Position numbers and translations under genes: made by a program | Part shown: piece after piece, positions 6,101 through 36,608 of the stretch | Numbering within the stretch: the stretch's first letter is position 1 | Layout of the letters: each line of letters begins with the position of its first letter | From: a virus | Length of the DNA: 36,775 nt | Virus record (IMG/VR): IMGVR_UViG_3300030060_003777 | Coordinates: 1-36,775 of that record | Direction: 5' to 3' (one strand) | Notes under the pieces: model-generated | The model's input: the letters and a program-made list of their open reading frames with translations, nothing else | Told to the model about the DNA's origin: nothing | The model's database searches: none

Positions 6101-9100
6101 ATGTATTTCTAGCTTTTTTACTTTTTCTTAACTCTGATTTAAATGCATCTAATTGCTTTTTAATATCTCTAGTTGGCAACAAATTGCCAATAATTCTTTC
6201 CATGTTTCTTGTAAAATGCAAATCCATAGTAAGCATATCGTAATTTCCCATAAGGTTTTGATAAAACGCCCCACCTACTTTAGGTCCAAATATACTACTT
6301 CCATATACTTTAGTATCAACTAATTCTCCTGATATTTTTTTAAGCCCTGTTTCTTCAATTTCTTTAACTGTAAATTCTGTATTTAAAAATTTATTTAGTT
6401 TATCTTCGCCCCACTCCTTTTTTAAATCATTGTGCAACTTCATAGCTTTTCTCATAGCTGCTTGCTCTTTTCCACCACCTTCTAAATTTTCATTAAACAC
6501 GCCATTTTCTTTAAAATATTCATAATTTTCTAATGCTAGTTTTAGATTTGGTCCAACAGCTTTTCCATTACTTGTGATAGCTAATGCAAACTTAAAAGCC
6601 ATTTCATTTTTTTCTTCAGCAATAGATGGGTCTATAAGCTTTATAATATCTACAGCATTTTTTGTTTTTGAAGAATACCAATCTGATGCATTCCAATCTC
6701 TTTTTAATTCCTCGTTAATTTCATCTATTAAAACTTCACCTATAAGCTTGTTATTTTCTGGTGTGTCTTCTGTTAGGTCTACTCCTAAATCTTCTTGTAT
6801 TTTCTTAGTTCTATTTGTTATAAAACGTGATAATTCTGATATATTTTTAAACTTTGGTGCTTTTTCTTTACCTGTAAAAAACACTGTGCTTGATAGTTTT
6901 TTTTCATTTCCTATTAACTGAAAACTTGTTTTACTTTTTTTCTTAGGCTTTTTAATTTTTGGAAGTTTATCTAACTTTGGCTTTGGTACATCATCGTAAG
7001 TTGCATCTTCAAATGCCTCATCTTCAGTTACCCTTGCTCCTGGCTTTTTAGGCTTCTTAAGGTCTCTAATAGGTTTGATTGTTTCTTTGCCTACCTTCTT
7101 CTCTACCTCTTTAAGTATTTGTTCTTGTTTCTTTTCTGGTATTACATCAAAGAAGTCTAGTGATTCATATGGTAGGGGTTCAAATTTCTCCTTTAGAGTC
7201 TCTATTATTCGTGGCTCTACAGTTTCTATTTGCTGTATTGGACCTGTATATATACCAGTTAAATCCTGGAACTGCTCATCACCAAGTATATCTCTTAGTA
7301 TTTCTAGTGGCTGTCTAGGGTCATCTGGTATTACCTGCTTAGGAGCTTGTTGCTCTAGCTTTATTTTTACCTCTCTAATTGCTACAGGAGATATTGTTTT
7401 AATTTTTTTACGAGCAAGCTTACTAGCTCTACGATTAAGAAAGTTAAATAATCTTGGCTTTGACTTAATTTTTTTAGCTTTTTCTTTTCTTTCCTTAATT
7501 TCTTTAGGCTTAGGTGGTACTATATCTGGTAGGTCTTCAAGCTCTGGCTCGGCAACCTCATCATATTGTGCGTCATCAAATCTTTCATCTAATGTAGGCT
7601 CAACTCCAGGTCTTAACCTTTTACGCTTTCTATCTTGTTTAGCTTCACGCTTCTCTTCTTTAGCAGTTTCTTTAGCTTCACGCTTTTCTTGTTTTTCTTC
7701 TTGACGCTCTTGTCTTTTTGCTCTTCTTTCTTCTAATTTTTGTGCACGCTCTGCTTTTATTTTAACTTTTCGTGCCCCTGCTTTTTCATATACATCTCTT
7801 ATTTTATCATCAAGAGTTATATTGCCAAATACTTTATTAAAATTATTTTTTATTCCATTAAATAATTTATCTACAAATGTTTTAGGTTTTTCCTGTGACT
7901 CATAAAATTTAGCCTTGCCTTCTTTTTCAAAAAGTTCTTGCTCAGATAAAGTTTGTGTTACATCTGATACAGAGTCTGGTATAAGCTCATTAATTTTTTC
8001 ATTTACTTTAGTTCTAAATTCTATATCTGTAGTATATCTATCATAATATTCTTCAAAAGCATCGCTTTGCTTATCTGTTAGTCCACCTCGATACGCTAAT
8101 CCAAAATATTCTTCTACAGCAGTATCAAGATTTGCTCCTCTTCTAAGCTCAAGTCCTAACTTTAAATTGTTCTTTAAAAATGTTTTTCCTAAAAATCGTG
8201 CTTTTTTTGTATCTTTTGGCAAGCCTTCTTCTTCCATTGAAGTTCCTTGCTCTTCTAGTTGCTCTGCAGTGACTTCGCCAACCTCATCAATAATCTCAAT
8301 ATCAGCTTCATTTTTTAGCTTAGGATTTTCTTTAACTATAGTCTCAATAACACTAATAGCCTCAGACATTCTCCTGTCTTCTATTAATTCTTCTTTTCTC
8401 TTCTTATCTTTTTTAGTTAGCTTTTTTTTGTTTTGTAATGTTTTTAATTCTTCTTCTGTTTCTTTATTTTTTTCTTTTAGCTCGTCTCTTTTTGTAGCAA
8501 TGCTTTCAAAATCTTTTTTAAATTTTCTTTCTTTAAGGTATGTTTTACTTCCTGCGTATGTACTTGCTCCTGCTACTGGTATGCTAAATGCAATTAATTC
8601 TACAGACATATTTTCTATAGCAGTTCCATAATCTCCTTTTTGCAAATCTCTAAATACATTTTCTCTATATTGTGGGTTGTCAAATCCTGGTAGTAGTGGT
8701 TCACCATCGATTCCTTTAGATTGAGACATTGCATAAATAAGCTCTCTTGTAGCATCGCCTATTCTTTCTTCACCCCATTCTGCTAATACTCCATCATATC
8801 CAGCAACTTGTAAATATTGTCTAATTTTAACTAAAGTTTCTTTAGTAATTTTTACATTAGGTGCATTTCTTCTTATTGCATCTGCTATTGTATTAGCTAC
8901 AGATTGACTAACAGCAGTTTCTGTTTGCCCAGGTGACAATTTATTGTATACTTTTTTAACTTTTGATGATACAAAAGGAAAAAATTTATTTAGTGCTTTT
9001 CCAAAAAATACCTCAGTTACAAATTCTATAGCTGCTTCTGTAGTTCCTTGTTTGTCTGCAGTATGTTTATCCATACCTTCTTCTGTAATTAATAAACCTT

Positions 9101-24904: not shown

Positions 24905-27291
24905 TCCTTAATATTTGAGTTTAAACATACTGCTAAATGCTCTGCTGTAGAGTATGGCATATTTAATAGCTCTACATTTGTAAAGTACCATGTATCTGTT
25001 GTGTTGTTTGTTTGTGAAATAGTCATATAGTCATCATAGCCACTTACACTGTTTGTTATAGTTACAACAAAAGCATAAAAAGTTTTTTGTGTTGTTGTTA
25101 CAACGTGAGAGCCATCTGCATCACGAGGGATAAAACTTAAGTGACTAAAAGAAGTTCCCTGATTTATACCAAAGCAAATATTTGGGGCTGTTCCTCCAGA
25201 TGACCATACATCTGCCTTCATTAAGAAAGTTCTACGATATGGTAAATAAACATTGGTGCTAAAGGATGTATCAGAAGTGCTCATTTTTCTTAGGTAAGCT
25301 CTTCCTAGTATAGCCCCCTCTTTACCTGTACCACCATCGTTTTCAAAGTTACCATTCCCTGAGCCTGTAATCTCTACCCTACCAGATGATGTATTTACAT
25401 TAAAGCCACCTATGGTTGTGTTAGGAGAGTAATCTGCCCAGTTGGGAGAGCCTGTTATTGTTTTATCGTCATCGCTATTTATAAATGAGTATTTTTGACC
25501 TGTTAGCCTCTCTTTTTTACCATTTTTAGAAAATTGCCTACATAAATCTCCAGGCTCCCATGTAAGGTTGTCTGCAGAAGTATCTACATCTGAAATTCTA
25601 CCACTTACAAGAACCTTAATTACATCGCCTGGGCTTCCTGATTCTAGTGCAAGTCCCCACATATTACTTGGCACTCCATATTGACCATAAAGTTCACCCA
25701 CATGGCTTGGAATTTCATCACGTTTAGCCATTAACTTGCCAAATTTATTTACACAAAGTGCAACTGGGTGTTTTTTAGCTGTAACATCTGTAGTAGAAGT
25801 GCCCCCATAAAGCTCTGCTGTTACTATTTGTTGCTCTTTAAAATCTCTTATACTCGCTCTATTTATCCCTGGGAAAATACATATCTTTCCAGTAGTATTA
25901 ACTGTTGTTGCATAAGTGCGTGGAGTCCAATCATCTTCGGAAGATGGTGCATTCTCATCTACTGTGTTACCATATTTTTCATATACTAAAATATTATCTA
26001 TCTCTATATTTCTTGCTGTTGTTTCTGCCACGCTATAAATCCTAAGTGGTCCAGAGGCATCTGTGCACGTTACCTCAACCCTGTGATACCTATTATTAGT
26101 AGTGGCTGTTATGTCGCTAGATGTAGCCCCACCTAAATCAATTCTCATTGTTATATTTCCACTTCCTTTGTGGTCAATTTGTGCAGAGATTATATATTTT
26201 TTACCTACTACTAAAGTCTCCATATCTGAAACTGGTAATAGTGCACCCTCATCTTCATTGTCGGTTGTTGTTGTTATATACATTTTATTTGCAGTAGTAT
26301 CATCTACATTCACGCTTGCGTCTGCTATATTGTATCCTACCCAGTTACCTGAATCGTGTGCTAAGCCTCTGTCATTTGAAACTTTTATAATATCTTTCCC
26401 TAAACAAAAGAATTCACCATTTCCTTCAAAATGAGTCAAAAGAGAATTTTCAGTTACATCTGTTTGGTTGGTTTGCACATGACCAGCTACAACTATATCA
26501 ACTACGTCACCAGCGTTTCCTCCAGTCTCACATATTCCCCAATGACCAAAATTTACCCAGTATCCATTAAAGTTTGTATTAGAAATAAAATCAAGACTAT
26601 CAGCGTTTATAGGACCTATTTCTAGACCTCCTCTTGCTATTAAATCTCCATCGGTATTAATAAAAAGCTTTACTGGTACCCCAGCTGGAATGGATGCGTT
26701 ATCTCCCCCATCGTATGTCCCTACTAGCTTTGCTTGAACTCTGTGTGATTCTCCATGCGAGTAGTCTGATATCTGTGGGGTTTGTACGCCCTGCCATATT
26801 ATAAACTCTCCATCATCACCATTGCCAGTCACTACTCCAAGAGTATTTACCATACTTTGCCTTTCTTCAGTAGATTGATTAAAATGACTTGTATTAGCGT
26901 GACAAAATTGACGAGCGTGGTCATCTGGTGAGTTTGTGTGTACACCTTCGGTTGGTAGAAGACCTTTAATCCACCTCCCTACATCACTAGATGTATTAGA
27001 ATTAGGAAACTTTACCTTCCCTTGCAGGACAACCTCTACTATATCACCAGCATTTGCCTTTCTCTCTACGATACCCCATCTACCTTGCATTACTCTGTAT
27101 GCACTAAGATAAGTACTTGCAGTCGCTGCCATTAAAGAAGGGGTTGCTGTTAGTTTCATACTATTGTGAGAGGTTGCATCGTACTCAACATTTATATAGA
27201 CTGGACACGCACCATATATGCTCTCAGTGAGCTCTGCGTGAACTGCTTGTCTTGCACTAAAATTTGTTATATGTGGACTACCAGTGTACAT
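24889..27291 (-). CDS. Long decoration-domain/carbohydrate-binding-like virion protein (800 residues)
   Basis: This sister of the 721-residue protein has three decoration-like copies. Copy 1 spans 8-158, with GRWGIVERKANAGDIVEVVL and closing IIWQG. Copy 2 spans 175-475, with HWGICETGGNAGDVVDIVVA, an inserted jelly-roll module about 300-440 ending in NIEIDNILVYEKY, and closing ICIFPG. Copy 3 spans 482-575, with MWGLALESGSPGDVIKVLVS, followed by another jelly-roll-like region about 600-780 with YLPYRRTFLMKADVWSSGG. It starts one base before the terminase stop overlap. As with its sister, a surface-exposed, glycan-binding virion protein is the best inference. Confidence 0.65.
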   Translation of the reverse strand: MYTGSPHITNFSARQAVHAELTESIYGACPVYINVEYDATSHNSMKLTATPSLMAATASTYLSAYRVMQGRWGIVERKANAGDIVEVVLQGKVKFPNSNTSSDVGRWIKGLLPTEGVHTNSPDDHARQFCHANTSHFNQSTEERQSMVNTLGVVTGNGDDGEFIIWQGVQTPQISDYSHGESHRVQAKLVGTYDGGDNASIPAGVPVKLFINTDGDLIARGGLEIGPINADSLDFISNTNFNGYWVNFGHWGICETGGNAGDVVDIVVAGHVQTNQTDVTENSLLTHFEGNGEFFCLGKDIIKVSNDRGLAHDSGNWVGYNIADASVNVDDTTANKMYITTTTDNEDEGALLPVSDMETLVVGKKYIISAQIDHKGSGNITMRIDLGGATSSDITATTNNRYHRVEVTCTDASGPLRIYSVAETTARNIEIDNILVYEKYGNTVDENAPSSEDDWTPRTYATTVNTTGKICIFPGINRASIRDFKEQQIVTAELYGGTSTTDVTAKKHPVALCVNKFGKLMAKRDEIPSHVGELYGQYGVPSNMWGLALESGSPGDVIKVLVSGRISDVDTSADNLTWEPGDLCRQFSKNGKKERLTGQKYSFINSDDDKTITGSPNWADYSPNTTIGGFNVNTSSGRVEITGSGNGNFENDGGTGKEGAILGRAYLRKMSTSDTSFSTNVYLPYRRTFLMKADVWSSGGTAPNICFGINQGTSFSHLSFIPRDADGSHVVTTTQKTFYAFVVTITNSVSGYDDYMTISQTNNTTDTWYFTNVELLNMPYSTAEHLAVCLNSNIKEWYIH

Positions 27292-28717
27292 TAATTCATT
27301 CCCCTAAAATCTATTGTGTCATCGTTTTCTTCAAACTCTAATAATTTTTCTATCTGTTGCTGTAATATTGGCTTCTTAGCTGGTTGCTGTGGAGGTGCTT
27401 GTATATGTGTTAAACTGTACCTCACTGCATCACAGATATGGTCTTCAAGTGTAGTGTCTATATCCTCTGGGTTCTTATCGTCTCTTATCATCTCTGGTAG
27501 CGTCCTTGCTAAGTTTGGACACGTTCCATCTATAATGAAGAAATTAGGTAATACTCCCTTCTTATAGTGCATTAACTGAGCCATGTTGCTCCATCCTATT
27601 ACCCTCGAGTTGTTTGCTGGTACTAGGTTTGGTACAAACTGACCTAACGCCGTTGCTATAGACTTGTCTGTGTACATGGGTGTTGCTGGGTTGTTCCATC
27701 TCATGGGATTCTTTGCCCACATCGAGGGGTCACCTAGACTCATAAATATCTCTTCATCTCCAGTCATATTTAGTATCTCTTGTCCCCACTGGGAAGGGTG
27801 CTTCTCTGTTCCATATAGCTCCCTATAGCAGAATACTCTGTTGTCTGGTGTTACCTCTATCCATATACACGCAAATGGTGCACTAAAGCCCCAGTCAATA
27901 CCGATGTACTTTTTATTAAAGCTCTGACCATATCCGAACTTCTTAGCTACATCCTCTGGTATGACGTGCATCTTAGGGTTCCATTCAGTAAAATACTGAC
28001 CAGCAAATATGTCCCAGTCTCCATGTCTCCACGCTGAGCGTAGTGGCTCTGGTAGATTATCTAAGAAATCAACGTAATCTGGGTCATTCTCCATTAGGGT
28101 AGGGTTGTTGTCTACTGTTGCTGGTATATACATTCTATACCTAGAGTTACCCTCTTTAAACGCCACCTCTGGTTTATGACCTTGTATGAAACGTCTCTTT
28201 ACCCATTGATGACCTTTACCACCTGGATTTGCTGTGCAGAACACCTTAGGCTCTAGTCCCTTTACTGTGCTTCTACAACTTGATATCAATTTCAAATAGC
28301 TTTCTTCTGATGGTATCTGGGTGAGCTCCTCTATTAATATTCTCTGGTACTCATGTCCCTGATACTTTGTGTAGGCACTCTCATCTTTTAAATGCCCACA
28401 TCTTATTATTGCTCCTGAGGGAAACTTTATTGTTGCTGGTTTCCCAGTTACCTTTGCATGAGGGTACATCTTATGTGCTCTATCTACCCAGTCTGCAAGG
28501 TCATCAGCATTTCTTCTTATTACTAGCATTCTAGCTTCTGGATTGTCTGTAGCTCTTAACAGCCACGCCATTCCACAATCTGTCTTACCTCCACCTCTTG
28601 CAAATCAATCCCCCACCAACTTAATGATGGGGGCAATTAAGCTCCACCATAAAGGCATTCATATACATCACTAACCTGTAATGCAAACGTCTGAGCACCT
28701 TCATGGGGCTTCCAAAT
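27291..28717 (-). CDS. terL: Terminase large subunit, coding sequence interrupted inside Walker A
   Basis: The C-terminal frame (27291-28598) has Walker B YQRILIEEL, the coupling motif VFCTAN, and RNase H-like nuclease residues in IGIDWGFSAP, CYRELYG, SLGDPSMWA and DHICDAVRYS. The N-terminal frame (28637-28717) encodes WKPHEGAQTF then QVSDVYECLYGGA, immediately followed by TAA. Forty-one bases later the frame resumes as RGGGKTDCGMAWLL. Joined, this gives GGARGGGKT, the usual Walker A of this family, and a 461-residue protein. The first ATG of the downstream frame (28571) lies after the Walker A lysine, so two separate ORFs could not make the ATPase. The apparent start is ATT overlapping the small terminase stop. 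Either a recoding event skips 28599-28639 or this copy is dead. Confidence 0.9.
28599..28639 (-). other. 41-nt intervening element with stem-loop inside terL (candidate bypass element)
   Basis: On the minus strand the N-terminal frame ends GGT GGA GCT TAA, and the C-terminal frame resumes GCA AGA GGT GGA GGT AAG. The skipped stretch carries a hairpin at 28610-28633: CCCCCATCA pairs with TGGTGGGGG (one G-T wobble) around a 6-nt loop. The matching alanine codons GCT and GCA could be take-off and landing sites for one tRNA. The layout (stop codon directly after take-off, hairpin, matching landing codon, 41-nt hop) resembles the 50-nt bypass in phage T4 gene 60 and the short mitochondrial byp elements of Magnusiomyces. 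Recoding itself is not shown by sequence. Confidence 0.6.
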
Positions 28718-29079
28718 TACTCCTTCGGTGATGGTTCTTCCTTTGGTAATACAACAAAGCCAGTAACTGAGTCGGATTCTATTGATATATCTTGCGCCTT
28801 TAATGTCGGTATAATCTTATCTACTACAACCTTTGCACAGCTTGTTGCATCCTTATGCTCATCCTCTGAGCCTAGTGTTGATGCTATCTGTATTACCTTG
28901 TTTAAAATATCTAATGCCTTTGGATTGCTTCTAAACTGCTCAGCTGTAGACTTACCCTTCTTAGGTCTGCCATTAGGGTTCAATGTATGTCCCTTAGTTA
29001 TTTTGCCTTTAGCATCTCTGCCATCATTCCTTACTTCTTCTGGCTTATAGTCTGGTGCGTCTTCTGTGTAGTTTGGCAT
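28717..29079 (-). CDS. Terminase small subunit-like protein
   Basis: This protein is about 120 residues long. The N-terminal part is acidic. The segment GHTLNPNGRPKKGKSTAEQF is the NPNGRPxG signature seen in DUF5681-type proteins encoded next to large terminases. The middle helix has NPKALDILNKVIQIASTLG. The frame opens with two ATGs, at 29083-29085 and 29077-29079; the second has the better distance from AAGGA. The stop TAA overlaps the ATT start of the large terminase. A DNA-binding packaging subunit is inferred from place and motif. Confidence 0.7.
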   Translation of the reverse strand: MPNYTEDAPDYKPEEVRNDGRDAKGKITKGHTLNPNGRPKKGKSTAEQFRSNPKALDILNKVIQIASTLGSEDEHKDATSCAKVVVDKIIPTLKAQDISIESDSVTGFVVLPKEEPSPKE

Positions 29080-32151: not shown

Positions 32152-32177
32152 AAAAGGGGGCTTCGGCTCCCTTTTTT
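32152..32177. terminator. Bidirectional intrinsic terminator between convergent operons
   Basis: On the plus strand a 10-bp stem (AAAAGGGGGC with GCTCCCTTTT, one G-T wobble) closes a cUUCGg tetraloop and runs into six T residues. Read on the minus strand it also forms a hairpin (one C-A mismatch) followed by TTTTC. It lies between the last rightward gene and the last leftward gene and overlaps the stop codon of the latter, so it should stop transcription from both sides. Confidence 0.85.
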
Positions 32178-32607
32178 ACATATACTCCAAAGCCTTCTCA
32201 ATCGGATAATCCTCAAAGTGTTCTGGTCTTAATATCTTTCTGTACTTTACATCAATCTGCTTAACGTGGAAAAATGCAATCTTATAAAGTCTAGGCTGAA
32301 CAAACGCAAATATATCACAATCAAAATCATTGTAGTGCTCGTAGTAGTGGAAGACTTTATTGTTCTTGGTAATCCTGCTACGTCTGTTAATGCTATAGCA
32401 GTACCCAGCATCATATCCTTTGTTCTCATGGTTCTTATAGGTACTGGTCTTTACTTGCACCTTGATAAGCTTTCCATCGTGTTCCATCGCTACATCGTAG
32501 GGTCTACGATTTGGAACTATCATTGCTGAGTAGTTGTGCAAGTTCAGATAAAAGACACAGAATAGCTCTCCTACATAACCTTTATCACTGGCTGATAGTT
32601 TTGTCAC
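32176..32607 (-). CDS. PD-(D/E)XK endonuclease-like protein
   Basis: This is a 143-residue protein. An N-terminal helix with GYVGELFCVFYLNL carries a conserved Glu, then PYDVAMEHDGKLIKVQVKTS gives Asp followed by Gln-x-Lys, the catalytic pattern of small PD-(D/E)XK proteins such as archaeal Holliday junction resolvases and PDDEXK_5/group I intron-type endonucleases. The C-terminal half has FAFVQPRLYKIAFFHVKQI. It is the last leftward gene, before the terminator. Junction resolution before packaging would fit, but the substrate is not determined. Confidence 0.7.
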   Translation of the reverse strand: MTKLSASDKGYVGELFCVFYLNLHNYSAMIVPNRRPYDVAMEHDGKLIKVQVKTSTYKNHENKGYDAGYCYSINRRSRITKNNKVFHYYEHYNDFDCDIFAFVQPRLYKIAFFHVKQIDVKYRKILRPEHFEDYPIEKALEYM

Positions 32608-35938: not shown

Positions 35939-36608
35939 GAGCTCTTGCTTCCTCTATTGATTGAAAGTCTGTATTGTTCATTTGATTGTATAGCCTTAAT
36001 CTTTTTTGGTCTTCTAGTGGATTTGACTTTACTTCCTCTACCTCGTTCATTATCTCATCTTCCCATGAACTATTAAACAGGTAAGTGTATGGATTCTTTC
36101 TAAACTGCTTATCAGTAGCTTTTACATAACGCTTGGTGTGGTTCATAATATCACTCACTAGAGACTGGTCAAGTTTCTTAGTCCAGAACTTAAGAGCCTT
36201 ATCCTTGCCAACTTTTTTGTCATATAATTTCCACCAATCAATAAAACTTTTATATATTTTATTATTATCTATATTACTATCTATATTAATAGTATCGGAA
36301 GACCCTACACTTTTAGGCGACCCCCCCTCCACTTTTACGACATCCCCCCTACACTTTTTGGCGAGGGTTATACTTCTGTCTGTATTGTTTGTTATTTCTA
36401 CTTCAATCAATCCCATACTTTTTAACTGGTTTATTGTCTTTGATACACTATTTATAGATGTGGATAATAGTCTTGCGAAGTATTTGTTGGTTGCAAAACA
36501 CCCCTTATCGTTATCTAAATTAGTGATTTTAGCCAGTATAAGCTTCTGCATATAGGTAAGGTTATCATCCCTTAAAATACTTCCTGGTATTACTATATAA
36601 TCGTTCAT
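35925..36608 (-). CDS. Winged-helix replication initiator-like protein
   Basis: This is a 227-residue protein. Residues 1-75 form a winged helix-turn-helix (LTYMQKLILAKITNL, FATNKYFARLLSTSINSVSK, then QLKSMGLIEVE), like HTH_36 domains of phage replication proteins. A Ser/Asn/Asp linker follows. The C-terminal part has FIDWWKLYDKKVGKDKALKF, then KRYVKATDKQFRKNPYTYLF, a pattern of phage replication initiators or helicase-loader recruiters. No helicase is encoded, so it may load the host helicase. The Asn/Asp-rich linker could contain the replication origin at the DNA level, but I see no clear iterons. Confidence 0.65.
   Translation of the reverse strand: MNDYIVIPGSILRDDNLTYMQKLILAKITNLDNDKGCFATNKYFARLLSTSINSVSKTINQLKSMGLIEVEITNNTDRSITLAKKCRGDVVKVEGGSPKSVGSSDTINIDSNIDNNKIYKSFIDWWKLYDKKVGKDKALKFWTKKLDQSLVSDIMNHTKRYVKATDKQFRKNPYTYLFNSSWEDEIMNEVEEVKSNPLEDQKRLRLYNQMNNTDFQSIEEARAHANG

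Follow-up and report, generated by a model that had tools for sequence, protein, structure and literature searches.

Interruption of the terL gene

How can a phage produce its terminase when the Walker A codons of the gene are split by a stop codon? The question arises from the terL gene of the virus record IMGVR_UViG_3300030060_003777, whose 36,775 bases are the window analysed here. All terL coordinates are window positions on the minus strand. The upstream reading, VIWKPHEGAQTFALQVSDVYECLYGGA, ends with TAT GGT GGA GCT, followed by TAA at 28639. A stretch of 41 nt, TAATTGCCCCCATCATTAAGTTGGTGGGGGATTGATTTGCA (28639-28599), separates this frame from AGA GGT GGA GGT AAG ACA, where reading resumes in another frame with RGGGKT and continues for 435 codons to the stop.

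A preliminary description of this DNA had reported LYGGA before TAA, RGGGKT 41 nt later, a 9-bp hairpin at 28610-28633, the synonymous alanine codons GCT and GCA bordering the element, and a resumed frame with TGA before AGA and no start codon ahead of the Walker A lysine. All of these were confirmed by re-reading the minus strand. Nine pairs and a 6-nt loop make up the hairpin (28633-28610), the TGA lies directly ahead of TTT GCA AGA, and the first start codon of the resumed frame is the ATG of GMAW, downstream of the Walker A lysine. The gap is laid out as GCU/UAAUUG-CCCCCAUCA-UUAAGU-UGGUGGGGG-AUUGAUUU-GCA/AGA, with slashes marking the ends of the insert.

Without 28599-28639 the terL frame reads ...YECLYGGARGGGKTDCG..., stops at 27291 and restores the consensus GGARGGGKT exactly. 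The single terminase of 461 residues described previously was recovered as a joined frame, but its length hinges on an unusual start, as there is no ATG, GTG or TTG upstream. Terminase profiles match the downstream part, and in uninterrupted relatives the matches to phrog_979, phrog_2, PF04466 and PF03237 extend over the interruption site. With a terminase profile and a Walker A motif both present, the gene encodes the large subunit of the terminase. The features are given in Table 1.

Table 1. Features of the interrupted terL gene in the window
Feature	Position	Strand	Remark
terL downstream frame, from the Walker A Arg (RGGGKT) to the stop	27291..28598	-	435 aa; purifying selection among carriers
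terL upstream frame ITEGVIWKPHEGAQTFALQVSDVYECLYGGA, ending in the putative take-off codon	28640..28732	-	Start inferred
Putative take-off codon GCU (Ala)	28640..28642	-	Identical in L002, L006, L016, L162 and L173
Candidate bypass element of 41 nt (stop, hairpin, linker and landing codon)	28599..28639	-	Traceless absence in 95-99% identical relatives
UAA adjoining the take-off codon	28637..28639	-	A stop begins all four insert designs
9-bp hairpin CCCCCAUCA-UUAAGU-UGGUGGGGG, beginning 6 nt past the take-off codon	28610..28633	-	z -3.1; covariation
G-run that closes the 3' arm, 8 nt ahead of the landing codon; possible Shine-Dalgarno-like landing aid	28610..28614	-	Position only; T4 analogy
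AU-rich linker AUUGAUUU	28602..28609	-	Counterparts AUUAUU in L162 and UGUAAU in L173
Putative landing codon GCA (Ala)	28599..28601	-	Retained in L002, L006, L016, L162 and L173
Resume codons AGA GGT GGA GGT AAG ACA (RGGGKT, remainder of Walker A)	28581..28598	-	Sequence

Carriers of the element among related phages

Of 80 relatives fetched with the downstream part, three share the element in its position; all three are IMG/VR contigs assembled from other metagenomes. In L002 and L016 the element has 41 nt and differs at one base; in L006 one additional G in the 3' arm brings it to 42 nt, and the loop is altered as well. It is absent from L001, L003 and L004, whose proteins are 95-99% identical and whose genes read GGT GCA AGA without interruption. 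The alternative allowed in the preliminary description, a lethal insertion in this one genome, is refuted by these carriers.

The insert of L006 is a multiple of three, yet the upstream frame still meets two stops, UAA and UGA, ahead of Walker A; readthrough by itself, or a single fixed frameshift, therefore does not suit all carriers. A hop would need just the two ends and fits all carriers, including both the 41-nt and the 42-nt forms. The haplotype peculiar to carriers covers only about 100 nt upstream of the element, and elsewhere L006 is nearer to the uninterrupted L003 and L004; recombination is therefore the probable route by which the element passes from genome to genome. An exact search of IMG/VR for the window's own hairpin with its TTG linker gave no match. 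Phage records in GenBank contained nothing near the window locus, the TerL relatives being below 60% identity, and a phmmer search of PDB sequences with an uninterrupted relative returned no match.

Other inserts at the same codons

L162 was found with a pattern that tolerated inserts of any kind between YGG and RGGGKT, and further designs with a profile-based search. Four insert designs were identified, of 41/42, 37, 26 and 8 nt, in the window plus three contigs, two contigs, one contig and four contigs, respectively. The 37-nt inserts read GCU/UGACUG-CUCCCUCUA-GAAA-UAGGGGGAG-AUUAUU-GCA in L162 and GCU/UGACUG-CUCCCAUCA-GUAA-UGGUGGGAG-UGUAAU-GCA in L173. The 26-nt design, known from the single contig L185, reads AGA GGU/UGACCCUUUGGGGUCAAUAAUUA-GGU, that is, AGA GGU/UGACCC-UUUG-GGGUCA-AUAAUUA-GGU/GGU GGA AAA. 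The 8-nt design is AGA GGU GGG GGC/UGACA-GGU/AAA in L211, L213, L214 and L215. L163-L167 were rejected as carriers, being ordinary terminases in which the pattern sits in another frame.

In all four designs a stop codon directly follows the take-off codon, and the take-off and landing codons are synonymous (GCU/GCA, GCU/GCA, GGU/GGU and GGC/GGU, respectively), being identical only in L185. Once the stop, the landing codon and all that lies between them are dropped, each design reads GGARGGGKT again. In L185, a plain excision of 23 nt between the GGU codons leaves four glycines, one too many, and a hop with the landing codon undecoded gives the correct three glycines and RGGGKT.

Folding and covariation of the hairpin

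The window insert alone folds at -17.4 kcal/mol with a z-score of -3.1 (-3.3 with flanks), and z-scores of the insert hairpins across designs range from -2.2 to -3.6. A 9-bp stem is common to the 37-42-nt forms, and all pairs are kept in the five distinct elements (100% of cells paired). Double-sided changes occur in three pairs, and the covariation score of 0.356 compares with 0.175 for shuffled sequences, 4 of 500 of which scored as high; every slid register scored worse. Coming from five related sequences, this covariation is supportive of the stem but not proof. The stem lies 6 nt past the take-off codon in the 37-42-nt forms, where its G-rich 3' arm ends 6-8 nt ahead of the landing codon. 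A stem that takes in the stop is present only in L185, and the 8-nt design has no stem.

The inner hairpin of the element, CCCATCATTAANNTGGTGGG, recurs with an identical loop in many other phage contigs (L082-L124), where it is intergenic, terminator-like and followed by a T-run. These copies are a possible source of the hairpin in terL. In bacterial genomes the hairpin core gave two stray matches only.

Chance, selection and phylogeny

At this base composition, a stop is expected as the first insert codon in 7% of cases, or 2.4e-5 jointly for four designs. Interruptions in the 158 fetched terL loci, which include some copies of one contig, are confined to the Walker A codons; the sole other stop, in L013, lies ahead of the gene. 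By rough arithmetic, the chance of four designs falling within about 7 of 462 codons is about (7/462)^3, or 3.5e-6. Across 27 genomes (810 kb, 864 ORFs), terL was the only clear interruption of this type. The same scan gave two split HSPs elsewhere, one in G014 near a contig end and one in a small ORF of G009. At 25959-25971 of G014 (the L215 contig), the giant ORF of G013 changes frame across an additional 14 nt close to the end of the contig, which may be an assembly error. An intact second terL, which the preliminary description had considered, was found in none of the 27 genomes checked, each having one terL.

Between carriers of the window group, the downstream part has a dN/dS of 0.05-0.14. 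Omega is 0.10 at a dS of 1.15 between L162 and L173 (37 nt) and 0.05-0.17, at a dS of up to 0.5, among the four contigs of the 8-nt group. These values resemble those of uninterrupted relatives. In the upstream part, carriers differ by 0-2 amino acids. Sequence comparison thus points to an interrupted gene that is selected as one protein, with purifying selection on both flanks.

In a maximum-likelihood tree of the downstream parts, the four designs stand in separate, well-supported parts with uninterrupted genes between them, and the distribution of inserts requires at least 8 changes. In several contigs (L012, L017, L033, L035, L036 and L223), of which two have genome length, one end falls no more than about 170 nt from the Walker A codons of terL; this may be coincidence, or the assembly may have broken where the site varies.

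Probable programmed bypassing and alternative explanations

We consider it likely that the terL inserts are programmed translational bypass elements of the T4 gene 60 type. The ribosome would translate as far as the Ala codon GCU, with the stop then in the A site. Peptidyl-tRNA-Ala would be released, the ribosome would cross the hairpin-bearing gap with no decoding, and the tRNA would re-pair with GCA 41 nt downstream. Decoding would restart at AGA and yield the continuous P-loop GGARGGGKT. tRNA-Ala(UGC) is able to read GCU and GCA, and tRNA-Gly(GCC) reads GGC and GGU; the former would read both the take-off GCU and the landing GCA. The hairpin and its G-rich 3' arm may aid take-off or landing. 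To our knowledge, UAA followed by U is not a leaky stop, and this counts against the hop reading, as does the lack of elements in many close relatives, for which TerL evidently does not need them. The upstream peptide is conserved because it is part of TerL itself.

The proposal of a new bypass element in the preliminary description gains support from an element that is both shared and varying, from other designs at the same site, from selection on both flanks and from the single terL in each of the 27 genomes checked. It understated the number, as these sequences suggest a family of elements and not one.

If the inserts instead inactivated terL, the carriers would be defective phages, population variants or assembly errors. 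An out-of-frame 41-nt insert that brings a stop codon into an essential P-loop should normally be fatal, and the nearest relatives are insert-free. However, the inserts occur in 11 contigs from separate assemblies, the 8-nt insert is identical in four diverged contigs, the two 37-nt carriers are still more diverged at low omega, the rest of the gene is uninterrupted across the 158 loci, and the stem has compensatory changes; we regard inactivation as very unlikely. The hairpin could also have reached terL as an intrinsic terminator or attenuator of transcription, given the frequent intergenic, T-run-followed copies of CCCATCATTAANNTGGTGGG in other phage contigs and a consensus scan that labels the window hairpin as terminator-like. 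By chance alone, however, the same scan gives 2.3 sites of this type over the stretch, and no T-run follows the hairpin in the window (AUUGAUUUGCA) or in L173 (UGUAAU). As a terminator would also leave the stop, the codon pairing and the hairpin-free 8-nt design unexplained, this explanation of the interruption is scarcely credible.

Removal of the insert, from RNA as an unknown mini-intron or from DNA by programmed excision, would regain the exact protein; the hairpins could bring the ends together, and spread by recombination would suit a mobile element. The inserts of 8 to 42 nt are nevertheless far below the size of any known self-splicing intron, 28500-28800 gave no Rfam match near the gathering threshold, and self-splicing introns were rejected on these grounds. 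Inteins were rejected because the stop comes first and the inserts are mostly out of frame. The excised ends have no fixed common sequence, splicing would not require a leading stop or synonymous take-off and landing codons, and excision of the L185 gap without the landing codon leaves the extra Gly. Removal is accordingly improbable. Stop readthrough, frameshifting or both would be an option for the 8-nt design, which a -1 shift on GGU GGG GGC turns into the P-loop-like RGGGLTGKT. Applied to the window this would add about 14 residues to the P-loop, and in L006 it would run into the two stops noted above; moreover, the frame relation varies (41, 42, 37, 26 and 8 nt) but the restored protein is constant. 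We give this explanation very little weight. The halves of TerL are probably joined by ribosomes and not by RNA or DNA processing.

Comparison with known systems

Efficient natural bypassing has been represented for decades by T4 gene 60, with few bacterial or phage candidates and a separate case in yeast mitochondria. The terL inserts resemble T4 gene 60 in being located in a phage gene, with a stop right after the take-off codon, a cognate landing codon, a possible counterpart of the stem-loop in three of the four designs, a G-rich, SD-like stretch some nucleotides ahead of landing, and an insert missing in relatives. The putative untranslated gap is also of similar size and below 56 nt; T4 processivity is constant below 56 nt and falls at 56 nt (PMC11194080). 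A minimal Shine-Dalgarno sequence is located 6 nt ahead of the T4 landing site, and the T4 insert has been proposed to protect against a homing nuclease (PMC5009743). Unlike T4 gene 60, which encodes a topoisomerase and uses GGA/GGA, the inserts described here lie in Walker A of terL between synonymous Ala or Gly codons, the hairpin starts 6 nt after the take-off codon, and several elements, known from sequence alone, occupy one site in one phage family. A further difference from T4 is that 28 genomes of the terL phages gave no homing endonuclease of the HNH_3 type above the cut-off and none of the GIY-YIG type.

A likely bypass has been described in the terminase of Streptomyces phage Hau3 and Strep C.1, which is UUA-linked and has a much shorter gap and an SD 5' of the gap (PMC5009743). 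This is likewise a proposed bypass in a phage terminase gene, but no insert is skipped there, whereas the terL phages have a stop in the A site and inserts in Walker A. The byp elements of Magnusiomyces capitatus mitochondria, with 81 instances in one genome, are context-independent and their codons are not always matched (PMC5009743). They share with the terL inserts the short skipped sequences and one logic for many elements, but the terL inserts occupy one site in one gene per phage. Synthetic stop-hops in E. coli are short hops over a stop between matched codons (PMC5009743). The 8-nt GGC-UGACA-GGU is of the same size and also lacks a hairpin, but it is natural and conserved over a dS of 0.5 in an essential gene.

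Bypassing in the terL Walker A, or a phage family of alternative bypass elements, was not described in the searched literature, which covered few subscription journals. Bypassing as such is already known, and the Hau3 terminase is an earlier, different candidate; what appears new is that alternative candidate bypass elements form a family and come up repeatedly at a single active site in an essential gene.

Origin and possible purpose of the elements

With almost even confidence, we suggest that the terL Walker A is a hot spot where stop-containing bypass elements arose at least three or four times and were exchanged by recombination, replaced or lost. Such elements may have been kept as a shield against a rival or host nuclease, or because the hop limits or times TerL. 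If the hot-spot reading is true, no family of interchangeable bypass elements would have been known from bacteriophages before.

By analogy with T4, an insert at Walker A could protect against a homing nuclease. In 28 genomes there was no HNH_3 match above the cut-off and no GIY-YIG gene, so nuclease protection stays a hypothesis. A small HNH-like ORF was rejected as a homing endonuclease for want of a Pfam match. A PDDEXK_5 endonuclease gene is present at 32176-32607 (minus strand) of the window, with close counterparts also in uninterrupted relatives. The element is possibly a regulatory brake on TerL, which fits the absent canonical start in the window's branch; this absence is also found in uninterrupted sisters of that branch.

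The approximately 11 natural constructs in four designs vary the gap from 8 to 42 nt, the presence of a hairpin, Ala or Gly tRNA, and UAA or UGA. One and the same essential protein serves as the readout for all of them, and uninterrupted sister genes provide the controls, so the requirements, origin and persistence of bypassing are directly testable. If the hop is true, a T4-centred textbook curiosity becomes a recurring, testable phenomenon. Gene callers will score such phages as lacking a functional terminase.

Start codon of terL

In the window, the 59 upstream-frame codons that follow the last stop include neither ATG nor GTG nor TTG, and terL probably starts at AUC (28732-28730), judging by the AAAGGA that precedes this codon in sister genomes. 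The upstream frame is without ATG, GTG and TTG in the window (28730-28816, minus strand) and in L001, L004, L007-L010, L013-L015 and L018. The candidate AUC start after AAAGGA or a similar sequence overlaps the end of the terS-like gene and is common to the sisters. L003, L005, L011 and L020 have ATG at the position of this AUC. G003 (the L003 contig; 7709-7855) and G010 (35997-36143) have a spacer of about 145 nt separating terL from the terS-like gene. This spacer is missing from the window's branch, and terL has its own ATG where the spacer is present.
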